From: Mahella sp.
GTDB lineage: Bacteria > Bacillota > Clostridia > Mahellales > Mahellaceae
Assembly (NCBI RefSeq): GCF_020054945.1
Contig: NZ_JAIHAU010000002.1
Location: 26,579-90,578, forward strand
DNA length: 64,000 nt
Reading direction: 5' to 3'
Both the position numbers and the translations under genes were made by a program. The notes below the pieces were generated by a model, which was not told the DNA's origin, searched no databases, and was given only the letters and a program-made list of their open reading frames with translations. The stretch's first letter is position 1, and each line of letters begins with the position of its first letter. This document shows, piece by piece, positions 1,638-21,634 of the stretch.

Positions 1638-4538
1638 CTAGTTAAAGAGTCCTTTCCTACTACAACATGAGTATAATTCGACGATATCCTTGAGTTCACC
1701 GGATACAGCTGCTTTCACAATATCGTCCATGTTGCCGGGTTTACCATTTTCCCACAAGGCGTTATTTAATACTGCCTGCACAAATTCTGAAAATACAGTA
1801 TCGTCCTTATTTGACTGCCATTCTAACCTTTTAGTCTCTATAAGCTCGATTAAGCCTTTGATTTGAGTAGATGATAGGCCTTGCTGCAATATGTCCCAAA
1901 TTTGAGAGAATGTATCTAATTCTTCTAACAGATACGGCCTATTGTCTCTATCGTTTTGTTTACCCCTTCTCCCATATTTCACCTCAAAACGTCGAGCCGA
2001 AGCATCTACATATATAAAATCAAACGATGAAGGATATATAGATACCGAATCACCTTCACGTAAGTCCTTGACATTGACAAGCCAGCCATCGGGACCCCTG
2101 AAAGCCGTGGAACGGTCCTGCAACTCTTGTAGAGAATTTACCTGTTGAGGATCTAAATAGAAATTGGAATGCCATATATCATCTTCTATATCCCACGTTA
2201 CACCATTTTCAAATTTCAGTTTATGATATTTATCATTGTGGCTGATAGAAGGCACGCGCCACGGTTCCTTTTTTGGCTTGTTTTTTACCATCTTATATGA
2301 AATGTCCAAAAGAGCGTTCATCGGGGTATTATGTTTGGCAATAGCCATACCTAAAAACAACGGCAGGCGATTTCTCACTTTGGCCATCTCCTGCTGATAC
2401 ATTTCTTTGATTTTGTGCACAACATCCAATGCCTTATCGGCAGGTACCAAAACGCTAAAATATTGAGGTTCACTTAATAAAGGAATAATCCTTGGATATG
2501 GAGCATCCAATAAGACAACATTTCTTATCTTTAAATCACCCAATTTTGAATTGGTTTCATTGCTTATTATTTCAATTGCCTTTGCGTTTGCCAATATCTC
2601 TCTTATATGCTCGCATGAAACACCATATTCGTTATCCAAGGAGAATTTCGGATCAAGTTGATTGGCCAATCTCTGCAGATTTTCGATTACGATATATCTA
2701 TTACCGTCATAATACAGATCAAACACAGTATTTTCTATCTTAGCTTCATAGGCGTAGTGCTCATCTATACTTGCTCCGCTTATTACATGCAAGAATTCCC
2801 CTGTTATCCCAATCCTTTGTTCTGCTCCACCAACCACTTTTTTAAGTTCTTTTAATACTTCGTTCCAAAATGCATAAGTGGTCCCCCACACCCTTTGTAT
2901 TCGAGCAAAGGATGGAGGCTTACGCCACACTCCCATGGCCAGCATTTCATTTTCCGGCATGTCTTCGTACTTTTCGCCTAAAAAGAGGGTTCTTTTCATA
3001 TTGCCCAAAGTGTTATAATCTGTCCTTGCAACTTTCTTAAATTTTTTAAGATTCTCTAAGTTACAACCATCCTTCTTGCCCTTAAACTCATTTGCAATAT
3101 CTGAGAATTCCACGCCACAATCTTCTTTGACATTTCTAAAGGTCGATATCATTCTACCGTTCAACCAATTATCAAGATCGAATTTTGCAGTTATAAGAGC
3201 AACCTCACCTTTAAAATCCGAAATTTCATTCATCCAAATGGTAGTATCTAACTTTTCAGTAGCCCATTCCTTACTTCTGCCACTTAAACGTTCAAAGCAC
3301 TTTTGGCATATCTTCCTTGACTCTATCTGTTGCGGTCTTACATGGCATATCGTACATTTATCCTTGGAACTTTGCCACTCCCTTTGAAGTAAAGCCAGAG
3401 TCGGCGATAAAGGCGCTATTTCTCCCGCCAATTCTGAGCCAGAAAAGAAAATACAGCGCCCCGCTGATTTGCTCACATTTACAGTGATAAGTACTTCACC
3501 ATCTGCCTCTTTATCGAACCTCCTCCTTATGACGTTTTCAAATGTCTCATTACTCTCACATTTATAATCCAATATATCCTCTATATCAGGAATTATAAAC
3601 AGTATACTATTGACATCACGATATACCTCAAACCCGAGAGGGTATTCTACCTCTATCAAATGCTTTATATTATCGAATCCCTTATTAATGAGATCTCTGT
3701 ATGCTAAAACAGCACCTATACGAGGTTTGGATATAAGCTCCAATCCATCTAAAGCTACACGCAGCGTCCTCCATTTATATTGTTCTTCCTTAACATCCTT
3801 GGTTGGTGGCCTATATTCACCATTTAATAGAACCTCCGCTAAAGAAGCCTTAAGAAAGGCCACTGAAGCCATAGTCTGATCCCACAGCGAAACATCATTT
3901 ACTGGCTTTCGCGTTTCAGCCACAGTGATTGAAAAATCATCCTTTAACCTTTCGATGAAGGATGAGCGCCATCCCAGCCATTGTGATAAATCCCAAGCTA
4001 TAGTTCCATCAATATAATCTTTTAATTCTTTTAGCTTGCTTTCCAAAAAATCATATAGTTCATGTCTGCGTTTACAGATCATATCGCGATCGATAAAACC
4101 GCTTTCATAACCAAAAGCCGAAGCAAGTGCCACATTTCCTTGCTGTTCATGATAGCTGCCATCTTCTAATATACCCTTTTCAACCGACGAACCCCTGGCA
4201 TGGGCATCCTTCATAAGCTTTAAATAACCGCTATCGTTATTCGATACTCCATTTTGATGGTTCTCAACTATATCCTTAATGGCAAATTTTGGTTTAGGCT
4301 CATCAATATTTTCGAATTTACACAGCGGTATGTTAAGCCATTTTTCTGCCAATAGCTTAAATAAATCAGGAAAATTTGATTCCAAATCGTCTGGAAGTTT
4401 ACGAGCATAGCTATGATTTATGAGAAATTTTTCATAGAATTTTCCTATCATGTGCAACCACATAGCAACTTCTACTGGCAGAAGCACATCGCGATTATCA
4501 GCCAATATCCCTAAATCTTTAGGTTTACCCTCATCCAT
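1638..4538 (-). CDS. csx11: Cas10-family large subunit, Csx11-like (type III-C-like or divergent III-B)
   Basis: 966 aa next to Cmr1. Zinc-ribbon CTICHVRPQQIESRKICQKCF; palm-like 'VALITAKFDLDNWLNG'; second palm 'PQYFSVLVPADKALDVVHKIKEMY...GMAIAKHNTPMNALLD' aligns by eye with Cas10 palm domains but lacks GGDD; 'WLHMIGKF' sits where HDIGKF is expected. Confidence 0.75.
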   Translation of the reverse strand: MDEGKPKDLGILADNRDVLLPVEVAMWLHMIGKFYEKFLINHSYARKLPDDLESNFPDLFKLLAEKWLNIPLCKFENIDEPKPKFAIKDIVENHQNGVSNNDSGYLKLMKDAHARGSSVEKGILEDGSYHEQQGNVALASAFGYESGFIDRDMICKRRHELYDFLESKLKELKDYIDGTIAWDLSQWLGWRSSFIERLKDDFSITVAETRKPVNDVSLWDQTMASVAFLKASLAEVLLNGEYRPPTKDVKEEQYKWRTLRVALDGLELISKPRIGAVLAYRDLINKGFDNIKHLIEVEYPLGFEVYRDVNSILFIIPDIEDILDYKCESNETFENVIRRRFDKEADGEVLITVNVSKSAGRCIFFSGSELAGEIAPLSPTLALLQREWQSSKDKCTICHVRPQQIESRKICQKCFERLSGRSKEWATEKLDTTIWMNEISDFKGEVALITAKFDLDNWLNGRMISTFRNVKEDCGVEFSDIANEFKGKKDGCNLENLKKFKKVARTDYNTLGNMKRTLFLGEKYEDMPENEMLAMGVWRKPPSFARIQRVWGTTYAFWNEVLKELKKVVGGAEQRIGITGEFLHVISGASIDEHYAYEAKIENTVFDLYYDGNRYIVIENLQRLANQLDPKFSLDNEYGVSCEHIREILANAKAIEIISNETNSKLGDLKIRNVVLLDAPYPRIIPLLSEPQYFSVLVPADKALDVVHKIKEMYQQEMAKVRNRLPLFLGMAIAKHNTPMNALLDISYKMVKNKPKKEPWRVPSISHNDKYHKLKFENGVTWDIEDDIWHSNFYLDPQQVNSLQELQDRSTAFRGPDGWLVNVKDLREGDSVSIYPSSFDFIYVDASARRFEVKYGRRGKQNDRDNRPYLLEELDTFSQIWDILQQGLSSTQIKGLIELIETKRLEWQSNKDDTVFSEFVQAVLNNALWENGKPGNMDDIVKAAVSGELKDIVELYSCCSRKGLFN

Positions 4539-4632: not shown

Positions 4633-4812
4633 GACTATATTGGAAGGGCAGCCGTCAAAGCTTTAAACGCCGGCATCAACATTGTCTTGGTATGCCATGA
4701 ATATGGAAATGAGATAGCGGCAATTGAAGCCATAAAAAAGCCACAAACGAGGACGCTATATCCATGGATAAAATAAATGCCAGCGTAGATGAAATCTACC
4801 AGGTTCTATATT
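4633..4812 (+). pseudogene. nagZ-like 3' fragment (beta-N-acetylhexosaminidase C-terminal remnant), frameshifted
   Basis: IGRAAVKALNAGINIVLVCHEYGNEIAAIEAIKK matches IGTAAVKALNAGIDIVLVCHEYENEIAVVEAIKK of the intact gene at 5478-6752; one A fewer in the poly-A tract near 4734-4739 breaks the frame. Confidence 0.8.
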
Positions 4813-4819
4813 GACCGCC

Positions 4820-5125
4820 CTACTTAAGATAATCGTTGAGCTGTTCCACATCGTTTATTTCAAAAATGGTATCAGCTATAGTCTCTAATACCGCATCATT
4901 CTGTTCCCTTATCTTCTCAACGTAATCTTCCGATAAGGTTCCAAACCTCTTCCGCAGAAACCTAACAATCATTTCTGCTTTGCCCTTTTCGATGCCCCTT
5001 TCAATGGCCTCAGCTATACCTTCGGCTTTGCCTTTCTCAATGCCTTTTTCAATGCCTTCAGCTATACCTTCTTCTCGTCCGATCTCTTTATAAATCTTGG
5101 CTAGGTTACTATTATCCCATGTCAA
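4820..5125 (-). pseudogene. C-terminal fragment of an Rpn/PD-(D/E)XK-family transposase-like protein
   Basis: NLAKIYKEIGREEGIAEGIEKGIEKGKAEGIAEAIERGIEKGKAEMIVRFLRKRFGTLSEDYVEKI: characteristic EGIxxGIEKG low-complexity linker plus RFG.LSEDY tail; the N-terminal nuclease domain is missing. Confidence 0.7.
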
Positions 5126-5477
5126 TCCTATGTTATCACCTTCTCCTCAAATTTTAAACCTTTTTCTTTCGGCCGCTCTAACATATCATCATTCGTACCC
5201 ATCATACCATATTTTACATCTATGTGCAAGAATATATTTTCGCATATAATCTATCATCTCATACGCTGCGAGATTATTGAAGAGCCCGAGCTCTTACGGT
5301 TAAGGTGAACTTTGGTTCAAATTTATATCATTCGCATCGTACAATTGCTGCTTGCCCGCAATAGTAAATGAGATTTGACGCATAAGGAATTTTCATCAAA
5401 AATTGATTAGCTGTAACCTTTTGGTGTATGATATATAATGTGTATTGCTTAAGCAGACAAAATAGTAGAAACGGAGA

Positions 5478-6752
5478 ATGGCAAACGTGCGCAGGATAAT
5501 CCTGATAACTGTTATTTTAAGCATAATCGCCGCATCGCTTATTGGATGCGGGTTGGGTAAAAACCAGACGCCAAGCTCCCCGCCCAAAACCGGAGATTCG
5601 AGTTCAAAGCCGCCCGAATCGGGAACCGAGCCTCAAGCGCCAGAGCCCCCTTTGGAAGAAAAGGACCCCATTGAAGAAAGAATTGACGCCATGACGCTCG
5701 ATGAGAAAATAGGGCAGATGGTCATAGTAGGATTAGATGGATATAATATAGATGAGAATGCCAAAACCCTCATTGAGGAAAAGCACGTCGGCGGATTTAT
5801 ACTATTTGAAAGAAACGTCGAAGATGCCGCTCAATTGCTGAATTTGACAAATTCATTAAAGCGCGCTAACACGGTCAACAAGATTCCTCTATTCATATCC
5901 GTCGACGAAGAAGGCGGAAGAGTATCCAGGATGCCCGATAGCATAAAAAAGCTCCCCACCAACAAAGCCATAGGCCAGATCAACGATGCCGACTATAGCT
6001 TTGGAATAGGCAGCGTTATCGGTAAAGAATTGAAAGCTTTTGGTTTCAATATGGACTTTGCGCCCGTGCTGGACATCAATAGCAATCCGAAAAATCCCGT
6101 AATAGGCGATAGATCTTTTGGCGCAGATGCCCAGACTGTAACCAAACTGGGCATACAGACCATGGAGGGAATCCGCACAGGAGGCGTTATCTCGGTGGTT
6201 AAGCATTTCCCCGGCCACGGGGATACATCGGTGGATTCCCATATAGACCTGCCCTCGGTCAACAACAGCTTGGAGCGATTGAGGAGTTTTGAGCTCATTC
6301 CATTCGCTTCGGCCATAGAAAACAACGCCGATGGGATAATGGTGGCTCACATACTCTTACCGAAGATCGACCCCGGCTACCCTTCTTCTATGTCTAAAAA
6401 GATAATAACCGGCATTTTGAGGGAAGAATTAAAATACGACGGCGTGATATTAAGCGACGATCTCACCATGGGCGCCATAGTAGATAACTATAGTATTGGA
6501 ACGGCGGCCGTCAAAGCTTTAAACGCCGGCATCGACATTGTTCTGGTATGCCATGAATATGAAAATGAGATAGCAGTAGTCGAAGCTATAAAAAAAGCCG
6601 CAAATGAAGGCGCTATATCCATGGATAAAATAGATGCCAGTGTGTATAGGATTTTAGCGCTGAAACAGCGGTATGCCCTTAAGGACGAGGAAATAGAGTC
6701 CGTCGATGTTAAGAGCATCAATGACGCCATAACCCATGCCCTCGACCGATGA
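5478..6752 (+). CDS. nagZ: Beta-N-acetylhexosaminidase, glycoside hydrolase family 3, lipoprotein
   Basis: Lipobox SLIGC; GH3 motifs VDEEGGRVSRM, KHFPGHGDTSVDSHIDLP, GVILSDDLTMGAI. Confidence 0.92.
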   Translation: MANVRRIILITVILSIIAASLIGCGLGKNQTPSSPPKTGDSSSKPPESGTEPQAPEPPLEEKDPIEERIDAMTLDEKIGQMVIVGLDGYNIDENAKTLIEEKHVGGFILFERNVEDAAQLLNLTNSLKRANTVNKIPLFISVDEEGGRVSRMPDSIKKLPTNKAIGQINDADYSFGIGSVIGKELKAFGFNMDFAPVLDINSNPKNPVIGDRSFGADAQTVTKLGIQTMEGIRTGGVISVVKHFPGHGDTSVDSHIDLPSVNNSLERLRSFELIPFASAIENNADGIMVAHILLPKIDPGYPSSMSKKIITGILREELKYDGVILSDDLTMGAIVDNYSIGTAAVKALNAGIDIVLVCHEYENEIAVVEAIKKAANEGAISMDKIDASVYRILALKQRYALKDEEIESVDVKSINDAITHALDR

Positions 6753-6764
6753 GCCCATATAACT

Positions 6765-6952
6765 GCATCATTCTGTTTCCTTATCTTCTCAACGTAATCT
6801 TCCGATAAGGTTCCAAACCTCTTCCGCAGAAACCTAATAATCATTTCTGTTTTGCCTTTTTCGATGCCCTTTTCAATACCTTCAGCTATACCTTCTTCTC
6901 GTCCGATCTCTTTATAAATTTTAGCCAGATTGCTATTATCCCATGTTATCAC
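6765..6952 (-). pseudogene. Second C-terminal Rpn-family fragment, truncated at nagZ side
   Basis: MITWDNSNLAKIYKEIGREEGIAEGIEKGIEKGKTEMIIRFLRKRFGTLSEDYVEKIRKQNDAV is near-identical to 4820-5125; then the frame runs into antisense nagZ. Confidence 0.7.
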
Positions 6953-19401: not shown

Positions 19402-19445
19402 ACAAAAAAGACCGCAGAATAAGCATCTTCTGTAGCCTTTTTTGT
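19402..19445. terminator. Rho-independent terminator downstream of the spoIID-like gene
   Basis: ACAAAAAAGACCGCAGAA-taagcatc-TTCTGTAGCCTTTTTTGT. Confidence 0.75.
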
Positions 19446-19453
19446 GAAACTTA

Positions 19454-21634
19454 TTATACAATCAGGTATTGTCCGCTGACATAGCCTGTTATGCCGCCAT
19501 ACTTTATCTTGTACCAGCTGCCGCTCTTGCCCAATACTTCTACTTTGGTGCCGTTCTTCAGGCTGCCTACCACCTTGTACTGGGTACCGGCTCCGCTGCG
19601 TACATTCAGCGTTGTATTCACCTTCACCGTACCGGTCTGTGTTGTGCTGCCTCGCGATGGTGCGGGTGCTGGCATCGGGCTTGCACTGCTTACCACCATG
19701 TATTGTCCGCTGACATAGCCTGTTATACCGTTATATTTTATCTTGTACCAGCTGCCGCTCTTGCCCAGCACTTCTACTTTAGTGCCGTTCTTCAAGCTGC
19801 CTACTACTTTATACTGGGTACCGGCCCCGCTGCGTACATTTAGCGTTGTATTCACCTTCACCGTGCCGGTCTGTGCAGCCGGTGCTGGTGCAGGTGTTGG
19901 CGCTGGCGTCGGCGCAGGTGCCGGGCTTGTACCGCTTACCACCAGGTATTGTCCGCTAACATAGCCTGTTATGCCGCCATATTTTATCTTGTACCAGCTG
20001 CCGCTCTTACCCAATACTTCTACTTTGGTGCCATTCTTCAGGCTGCCTACCACTTTGTACTGGGTACCGGCTCCGCTGCGTACATTCAGCGTTGTATTCA
20101 CCTTCACCGTACCGGTCTGTGTAGCCGGTGCTGGCGCAGGTGTGGGTGCTGGCGGCGGTACGGGTCTGTCCTCGCCGCGGTCGGGCAGAGGTGCCGGCGC
20201 CGGCTGTGCGGGTATGGAGTACTTCACGCGGCTGGCTACCGGATAGTAGAAGTCCAGTATTTGACCATAATTTTGCCCTGCCTCAGCCCTGTACTTGGCC
20301 CCGTACTGGCTCATACCCCTGCCATGGCCATAACCTCTGCCCTTTATGACATAACCATCGCCGCTTTTCTCAAAGCTGTCTATAAGGTAACTTTTTATTA
20401 TGCTTGCTCCAAAGCCCATGCGCATTTGCGTTACTGTAAAAGTAATCGTTCGCTGATTTACATTTAACTCAGTCACCGGCTGAGGCGCCTGCTCATTGGA
20501 CAAAGGATCCTGCTCCGGCACAATGACTTTTGTATCATATGCTTTTGTTTCGATATCTTTAGTTAAGAATTTTACCGTCATTGTAACGTGGCTGTCGGCC
20601 GGCAAACGCTGGCCTTCCGTGCGCTTACTAAGGTCCATGGTCATATCGGTTATCTCGGTTATACGAATATCTTTGCCGGTATACATCGGTGCCAATAACG
20701 ATTTGACGCCGGCTATCATAGCCTTCTCATTAGCCCTTGATGCATATGTAATATTTTCTATGCTATTCCACCATACATCGAGCGCTGCAATGTCGTTTTG
20801 AGCCAGGTATCCATTGGCTGCATCGATCTGTACCGGATCTATTTGTACCTTCTTATATGTGACTGTCCATGGGTTTATCGGATCATACTCATCCTTTTTG
20901 GCCGCCGAATAGCTGCTTTTCTCGACTATACCACCATTGCTGGACGAATACTCCGTCAACGCAGGGCTGCCATTGTACTCCAGCACTATGCCTCGTGTCT
21001 CATCCACGGCCGCATTGCTGTTGCTATATGATTGGCTGTTCCATATATATCCGCCATAAACCTGATTATCAGTGGTATCCAGCACATCATAACTGCCAGT
21101 AGGTTTAAGGCAGCGTATAGCGTATGTCCTGGCCGCTATAGCTTGGGCTTTCAGAGCCTCTTTATTCCATGAAGCAGGCATTTCATACGGTACGACCCCT
21201 TTCAGGTAATCTTCCAGCATAAGTTTGCTTATAGGCCTGACATATGCCCCGTCGATGCCAAACGCCATGCTGCCTATATATGCCCTGCCGTTGACTTCTA
21301 TAACATTGTCAGTACCGTAATGCGCCGGTACCAGTTCAAGCGATGAGCCATAGGTGCCTATGAGCGTGTTACCTTCATAAAGGCTCAAACTCCCATTTAC
21401 TGCTTTTACCGCGTAGTTATGATCTTGCTGCAATATTAATGATGGGTTGCCCGCCATGCTGTAGCTGCCTTTGGTTATTTTCACCGATATCAGTGATTTG
21501 TTGCCTATGTAATTGCGCAATTGCACCCTTATCACATCGGGTTCGCTTTTGGCAGCTCGTGCCTGGCCGGCAAGCGGTAACAACATCGTAAACGCCAGCA
21601 AAATCGATAAAAGCACTGCTGTTATACGTCTCAT
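19454..21634 (-). CDS. SpoIID/LytB domain protein with three C-terminal SH3-like repeats
   Basis: SpoIID motifs [44 protein letters not shown]; three copies of [58 protein letters not shown]. Confidence 0.93.

Follow-up and report, generated by a model that had tools for sequence, protein, structure and literature searches.

The question raised by this locus is whether the large subunit of a type III CRISPR complex in Mahella sp. has lost both of its catalytic centres and, if so, what the complex could still do. In the 64,000-nucleotide stretch of DNA analysed here (the window), the first-pass annotation had described a 966-aa Csx11/Cas10-like protein in which both the HD and the GGDD motifs appeared to be replaced. 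It proposed that the complex would make no cyclic oligoadenylate (cOA) and might have no Cas10 ssDNase, leaving only Cas7-type RNA cleavage or a novel accessory activity. Our results favour the former: the complex probably acts by guide-directed RNA cutting alone, with a Csx11 dead at both sites and crRNAs supplied in trans from another contig of the same genome, C24.

The gene at 1638-4538, on the minus strand (which the annotation had left unstated), is a real and intact open reading frame of 966 uninterrupted residues, and Cmr1 is indeed the next gene. A profile search of the protein with TIGR02682 (Csx11) gave 438 bits (E 9e-131), well over the curated cut-off of 249 bits that marks membership in III-C, and the PADLOC Cas10c model matched it with 552 bits (E 7e-166). 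By these profiles, the assignment to Csx11 (Cas10c), the large subunit of the type III-C effector, is unambiguous. The 2.16-Mb assembly, which is 86% complete, holds no second match of its kind. A phmmer search found no match to Csx11 among PDB chain sequences, and scans with the single protein returned no relatives among genome contigs or viral contigs; relatives were found by scanning with a six-member alignment instead. An AlphaFold model built on an alignment of 23 sequences (pTM 0.83, mean pLDDT 77, with low confidence in the HD region) was compared with known structures by Foldseek, and its best matches were all Csm1/Cmr2 chains of type III complexes, led by 6xn7_A (E 3e-9, target-normalised TM 0.54). 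The TM-scores are moderate (target-normalised, up to 0.57), and among the matches listed all were type III complexes or Cas10 chains, as the Cas10-like fold originally proposed would lead one to expect.

Csx11 is the first gene of an operon in the order Csx11-Cmr1-Cmr6-Cmr4-Cmr5-Cmr3, all on the minus strand and tightly spaced or overlapping, the last genes of which extend beyond the left edge of the window and were read from the DNA to its left. Cmr1, a RAMP protein, lies at 456-1622 (TIGR01894, E 2e-17; PADLOC Cmr1, E 9e-26), and Cmr6 is cut by the window edge, with its 5' part at 2-463 and the full gene at L003:7807-9042. To its left follow Cmr4 (L003:6870-7835), Cmr5 (L003:6476-6862) and Cmr3 (L003:5666-6469). 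All six subunit genes are open and complete, and the presence of Cmr1, Cmr3, Cmr4, Cmr5 and Cmr6 in one operon, as called by PADLOC with the Cmr5 models labelled CAS-III-C, corresponds to the III-C gene set. Recovering the genes left of the window, as the first-pass annotation had advised, therefore gave a complete III-C operon. The CARF effectors that it had also suggested looking for are absent beside the operon: the stretch of contig C3 that was read around it showed neither an array nor cas1, cas6 or a CARF gene.

The state of the cyclase site was examined by aligning a profile of 81 Csx11-family sequences with one of eight Cas10s carrying [GN]GDD (seven GGDD and one NGDD). The GGDD motif aligns with E690-P691-Q692-Y693 (2460-2471, minus strand; hhalign E 2.8e-6 for the segment), so that the loss of the motif first read as a change to SEPQ stands, while its register was one column early. 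P691, which takes the place of the second glycine, is invariant in the 79 relatives with a residue at that column (79/79). The third motif position is an aspartate in eleven family members, and a full GGDD-type motif was found neither in the window's Csx11 nor in any of the 79 relatives at the aligned columns. The flanking region still aligns with the Cas10 palm, as had been noticed from the sequence, and PF22335 recognises the remaining palm-2 fold at residues 696-758 (2265-2453, minus strand; E 1e-4; pLDDT mostly above 80). Together, the invariant proline and the lack of a full motif among relatives point to cyclase loss as a trait of the whole subtype III-C. This is in agreement with published work, as Csx11 was termed an inactivated Cas10 in 2011 (PMC3150331), cyclase sites were reported missing from III-C in 2024 (PMC11229360) and III-C was listed among inactivated systems in 2025 (PMC12669027). 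The predicted loss of cyclase activity is thus general to III-C and previously published, as the first-pass annotation had stated.

Two other elements said to be retained fared differently. The zinc ribbon C395/C398/C411/C414 (3297-3356, minus strand) is present and nearly invariant in the 23 aligned Csx11 sequences. The FDLDNWL segment is also present at residues 453-459 (3162-3182, minus strand), but column counts do not bear out conserved aspartates, as position 454 is D in 41 of 80 family sequences, and otherwise mostly G or E, and position 456 is D in just 14 of 80. Since these acidic residues vary freely in the family, the segment is no evidence for a retained catalytic part.

At the HD site, residues 23-38 of Csx11 read EVAMWLHMIGKFYEKF and contain H29-M30 (4449-4454, minus strand) in a column that is H-D in 50 of the 76 Csx11 sequences with a readable site, so the change from HD to HM was correctly recognised, and an intact HD pair was not found at the aligned positions. 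The other states were nine HM, nine HN, two HL, one HQ, three FN and two AL; the aspartate is therefore missing in 26 of 76 (the window protein and 25 others), although the sample, drawn from one phylum sample and from a pattern scan, is non-random and 50/76 is no prevalence estimate. A recognisable HD domain has been reported in only half of III-C systems (PMC11229360), and the states observed here fit that figure. Eight further HM members in different genomes rule out a sequencing or assembly oddity. When a profile of the HD region was compared with canonical Cas10, the C-terminal part alone aligned, so the placement of the motif rests on the alignment within the family and on the shared xLHxxGK pattern. 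In a tree that excluded the HD region, six changes between HD and not-HD were needed, at least five of them forced by well-supported branches; the window's Csx11 grouped with full support with the HM members L063 and L068, and replacements of the aspartate by M or N recur on separate branches. Judged from these alignments, loss of the HD aspartate is common and recurrent in III-C.

The second part of the HD site, H113-ARGS-S118 (4185-4202, minus strand), is altered as well, with S118 instead of histidine in the family alignment. Of 49 HD-bearing Csx11, 44 have H at position 118, as against none of the 26 that lack the HD aspartate, the five HD-bearing members without H118 having a canonical CD..DS form. 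The joint loss is perfect in direction, yet it comes down to four of five independent pairs and is not significant (p 0.125, underpowered). A very divergent second Csx11-like protein of 1242 aa (L042:6843-10568, genome G151) carries HD together with a canonical second HD motif, its palm reads YGLTDEF, and it is possibly an intermediate form.

The pattern of conservation around this site raises the alternative that it is altered rather than dead, with H29, H113, K33 and K121, together with H94, forming a metal or nucleotide site that retains some nuclease or binding activity. H29, H113 and K121 (4452-4454, 4200-4202 and 4176-4178) are the same in every one of the 21 HM/HN/HL/HQ members, which come from diverse phyla, and position 33 is K in 19 of them and R in two. 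The same few replacements, M and N, arose on separate branches, and the retention of these residues is more than simple decay of a dead site would account for. However, none of the 21 has the HD aspartate, mutation of the HD pair in Pyrococcus furiosus Cmr2 abolishes its DNase activity (PMC7192623), H118 is lost in every HM/HN/HL/HQ member, and the FN/AL clade of five members, in which H29 and H113 are also gone, still keeps the operon. We therefore consider it unlikely, though the foremost of the alternatives, that the HD site is merely altered; equally doubtful is a site of H29-K33-H113-K121 repurposed in HD-lost III-C systems for metal, nucleotide or RNA binding or as an unusual nuclease, which would give the complex an activity beyond cOA synthesis and canonical ssDNase.

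The catalytic residue of the backbone tells the opposite story. In alignment, Cmr4 D35 falls on P. furiosus Cmr4 D26, and a D26N mutation there abolishes cleavage of target RNA (PMC7192623). All 68 loci collected retain the aspartate, among them all 24 with a lost HD. Its retention makes Cas7-type RNA cleavage the best reading of what is left to the complex. A complex that only binds RNA or nascent transcripts, silencing or regulating them without cutting, would be consistent with the loss of both Cas10 sites, and non-cleaving CRISPR effectors are known in types IV and V (PMC12669027), but a slicer aspartate conserved throughout would be needless if nothing were cut, and we regard such a complex as improbable. 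We also looked for a compensating effector near HD-lost loci, where no non-core gene family occurred in more than three of 26; nothing there hints at a dedicated replacement. Likewise, nothing was found to support the novel accessory activity first proposed.

Other genes were seen beside III-C operons. In seven loci, all HD-bearing (L073, L074, L091, L112, L113, L121 and L123), an AAA_21/AAA_15 ATPase resembling AriA and AbiLi lies upstream of Csx11 on the same strand, together with an ORF of about 150-270 aa that has no match in Pfam or PADLOC. Six III-C operons (L064, L068, L071, L075, L076 and L120) lie near members of a family to which type I-D Csc2 belongs (one member checked, with Pfam).

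The surroundings of the operon might instead suggest that it is decaying and non-functional, as it has no array or adaptation genes alongside, and on its flanks lie DUF4351 fragments and a duplicated nagZ end. A DUF4351 (Rpn-type) fragment borders the operon at about 4785-5144 (feature 4820-5125, minus strand), and a copy 86% identical to it lies at the other end (L003:5275-5528). Nevertheless, each of the six subunit genes is open and complete, the HM state is common to relatives in several phyla, and arrays are usually missing at III-C loci (PMC12669027), so that decay appears less probable still than a complex that binds without cutting. The assembly has four DUF4351 copies, three of which adjoin the operon (those two and one at 6762-6946), and the nagZ 3' end occurs twice next to it (4638-4786 and 6494-6643). 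This arrangement suggests that the repeats mediated the arrival or a rearrangement of the operon. Elsewhere in the window, at 19420-20145, a 246-nt unit is repeated three times in tandem with 74-88% identity. Finally, that Csx11 is a catalytically competent Cas10 with its ligands elsewhere in the fold is hardly credible: the palm-2 fold is retained, but the profile alignment places the motif unambiguously, an invariant proline replaces the second glycine and the motif is absent from all 79 relatives.

A complex that cuts RNA would need guides, and these may come from contig C24. Arrays with the repeat GTTTCAATYCCTCATAGGTAGGCTAAAAAC are found there (the assembly has 128 matches, and of those listed nearly all are on C24), along with Cas1, Cas4, Cas3b, I-B effector genes, a III-D operon and Cas6; no Cas1 or Cas6 match was found in the assembly outside this contig. 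Two HD-lost III-C loci, L038 and L057, adjoin arrays of the same repeat type. With the arrays and the sole Cas6 on C24 and same-type arrays beside these relatives, supply of crRNAs in trans to the III-C complex is plausible, though the link between III-C and C24 is an indirect one. Most III-C loci are reported without arrays (PMC12669027) and presumably depend on trans supply too, and Cas1 was present in 19 of 23 III-C genomes, many of which have another Cas10. The III-D system on C24 is another type III complex of this cell, but unlike III-C it has a Cas10 reading FNGDDVTF (NGDD) that adjoins a CARF-PDDEXK nuclease, and for this reason III-D is likely the cOA branch of the cell. The Cas10/CARF-PDDEXK pair lies at L044:8944-10155 and L044:7386-8942, and arrays flank the III-D operon on both sides.

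We therefore return to guide-directed RNA cutting as the probable activity of this III-C complex: with both Cas10 sites lost, it most likely defends only by cutting matching RNA. At the level of sequence, III-C membership, the loss of the cyclase motif, of the HD aspartate and of H118, and the retention of the slicer aspartate are firm, and they predict a Csx11 lacking both cyclase and HD activity. Csx11 would then serve as a structural cap that holds the 5' end of the crRNA and aids complex assembly; crRNAs from the C24 arrays, cut by the single Cas6 found there, would be loaded in trans; the Cmr4 backbone would slice bound transcripts; and cOA signalling in this genome would fall to III-D, a separate system. 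A double mutant of P. furiosus Cmr2 in HD and palm still cut target RNA, but anti-plasmid immunity was gone (PMC7192623), and slicing alone may thus not protect against DNA invaders. Complexes with a natural double loss may instead target RNA phages or specific transcripts, or act together with the cOA-producing III-D.

Type III-C is a known, little-studied CRISPR system, and both losses of Csx11 are already described at the subtype level. The window system shares with the published III-C (Csx11/Cas10c with Cmr1, 3, 4, 5 and 6) the signature protein, the gene set, the inactivated cyclase and the missing array, and also lacks the HD aspartate; as HD loss is reported in about half of III-C, it is a variant within the subtype. 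The P. furiosus III-B Cmr complex has the same subunit types and a slicer aspartate, D26, that aligns, but its Cmr2 carries GGDD and HD. A mirror-image system shares with III-C the inactivated cyclase and the absence of CARF effectors and of an adaptation module, whereas its HD is predicted to be active and the catalytic aspartates of its Cas7 are not conserved. III-G and III-H dropped cyclase and slicer and kept the HD nuclease, and the double loss in III-C complements them.

A double-dead Cas10, which abolishes anti-plasmid immunity when engineered in P. furiosus Cmr, would thus have arisen repeatedly in nature, and the RNA slicer is kept in every natural case seen here. III-C may therefore offer a direct test of whether slicing alone protects, and against which invaders, as well as of whether double-dead complexes help a cOA-producing system in the same cell.
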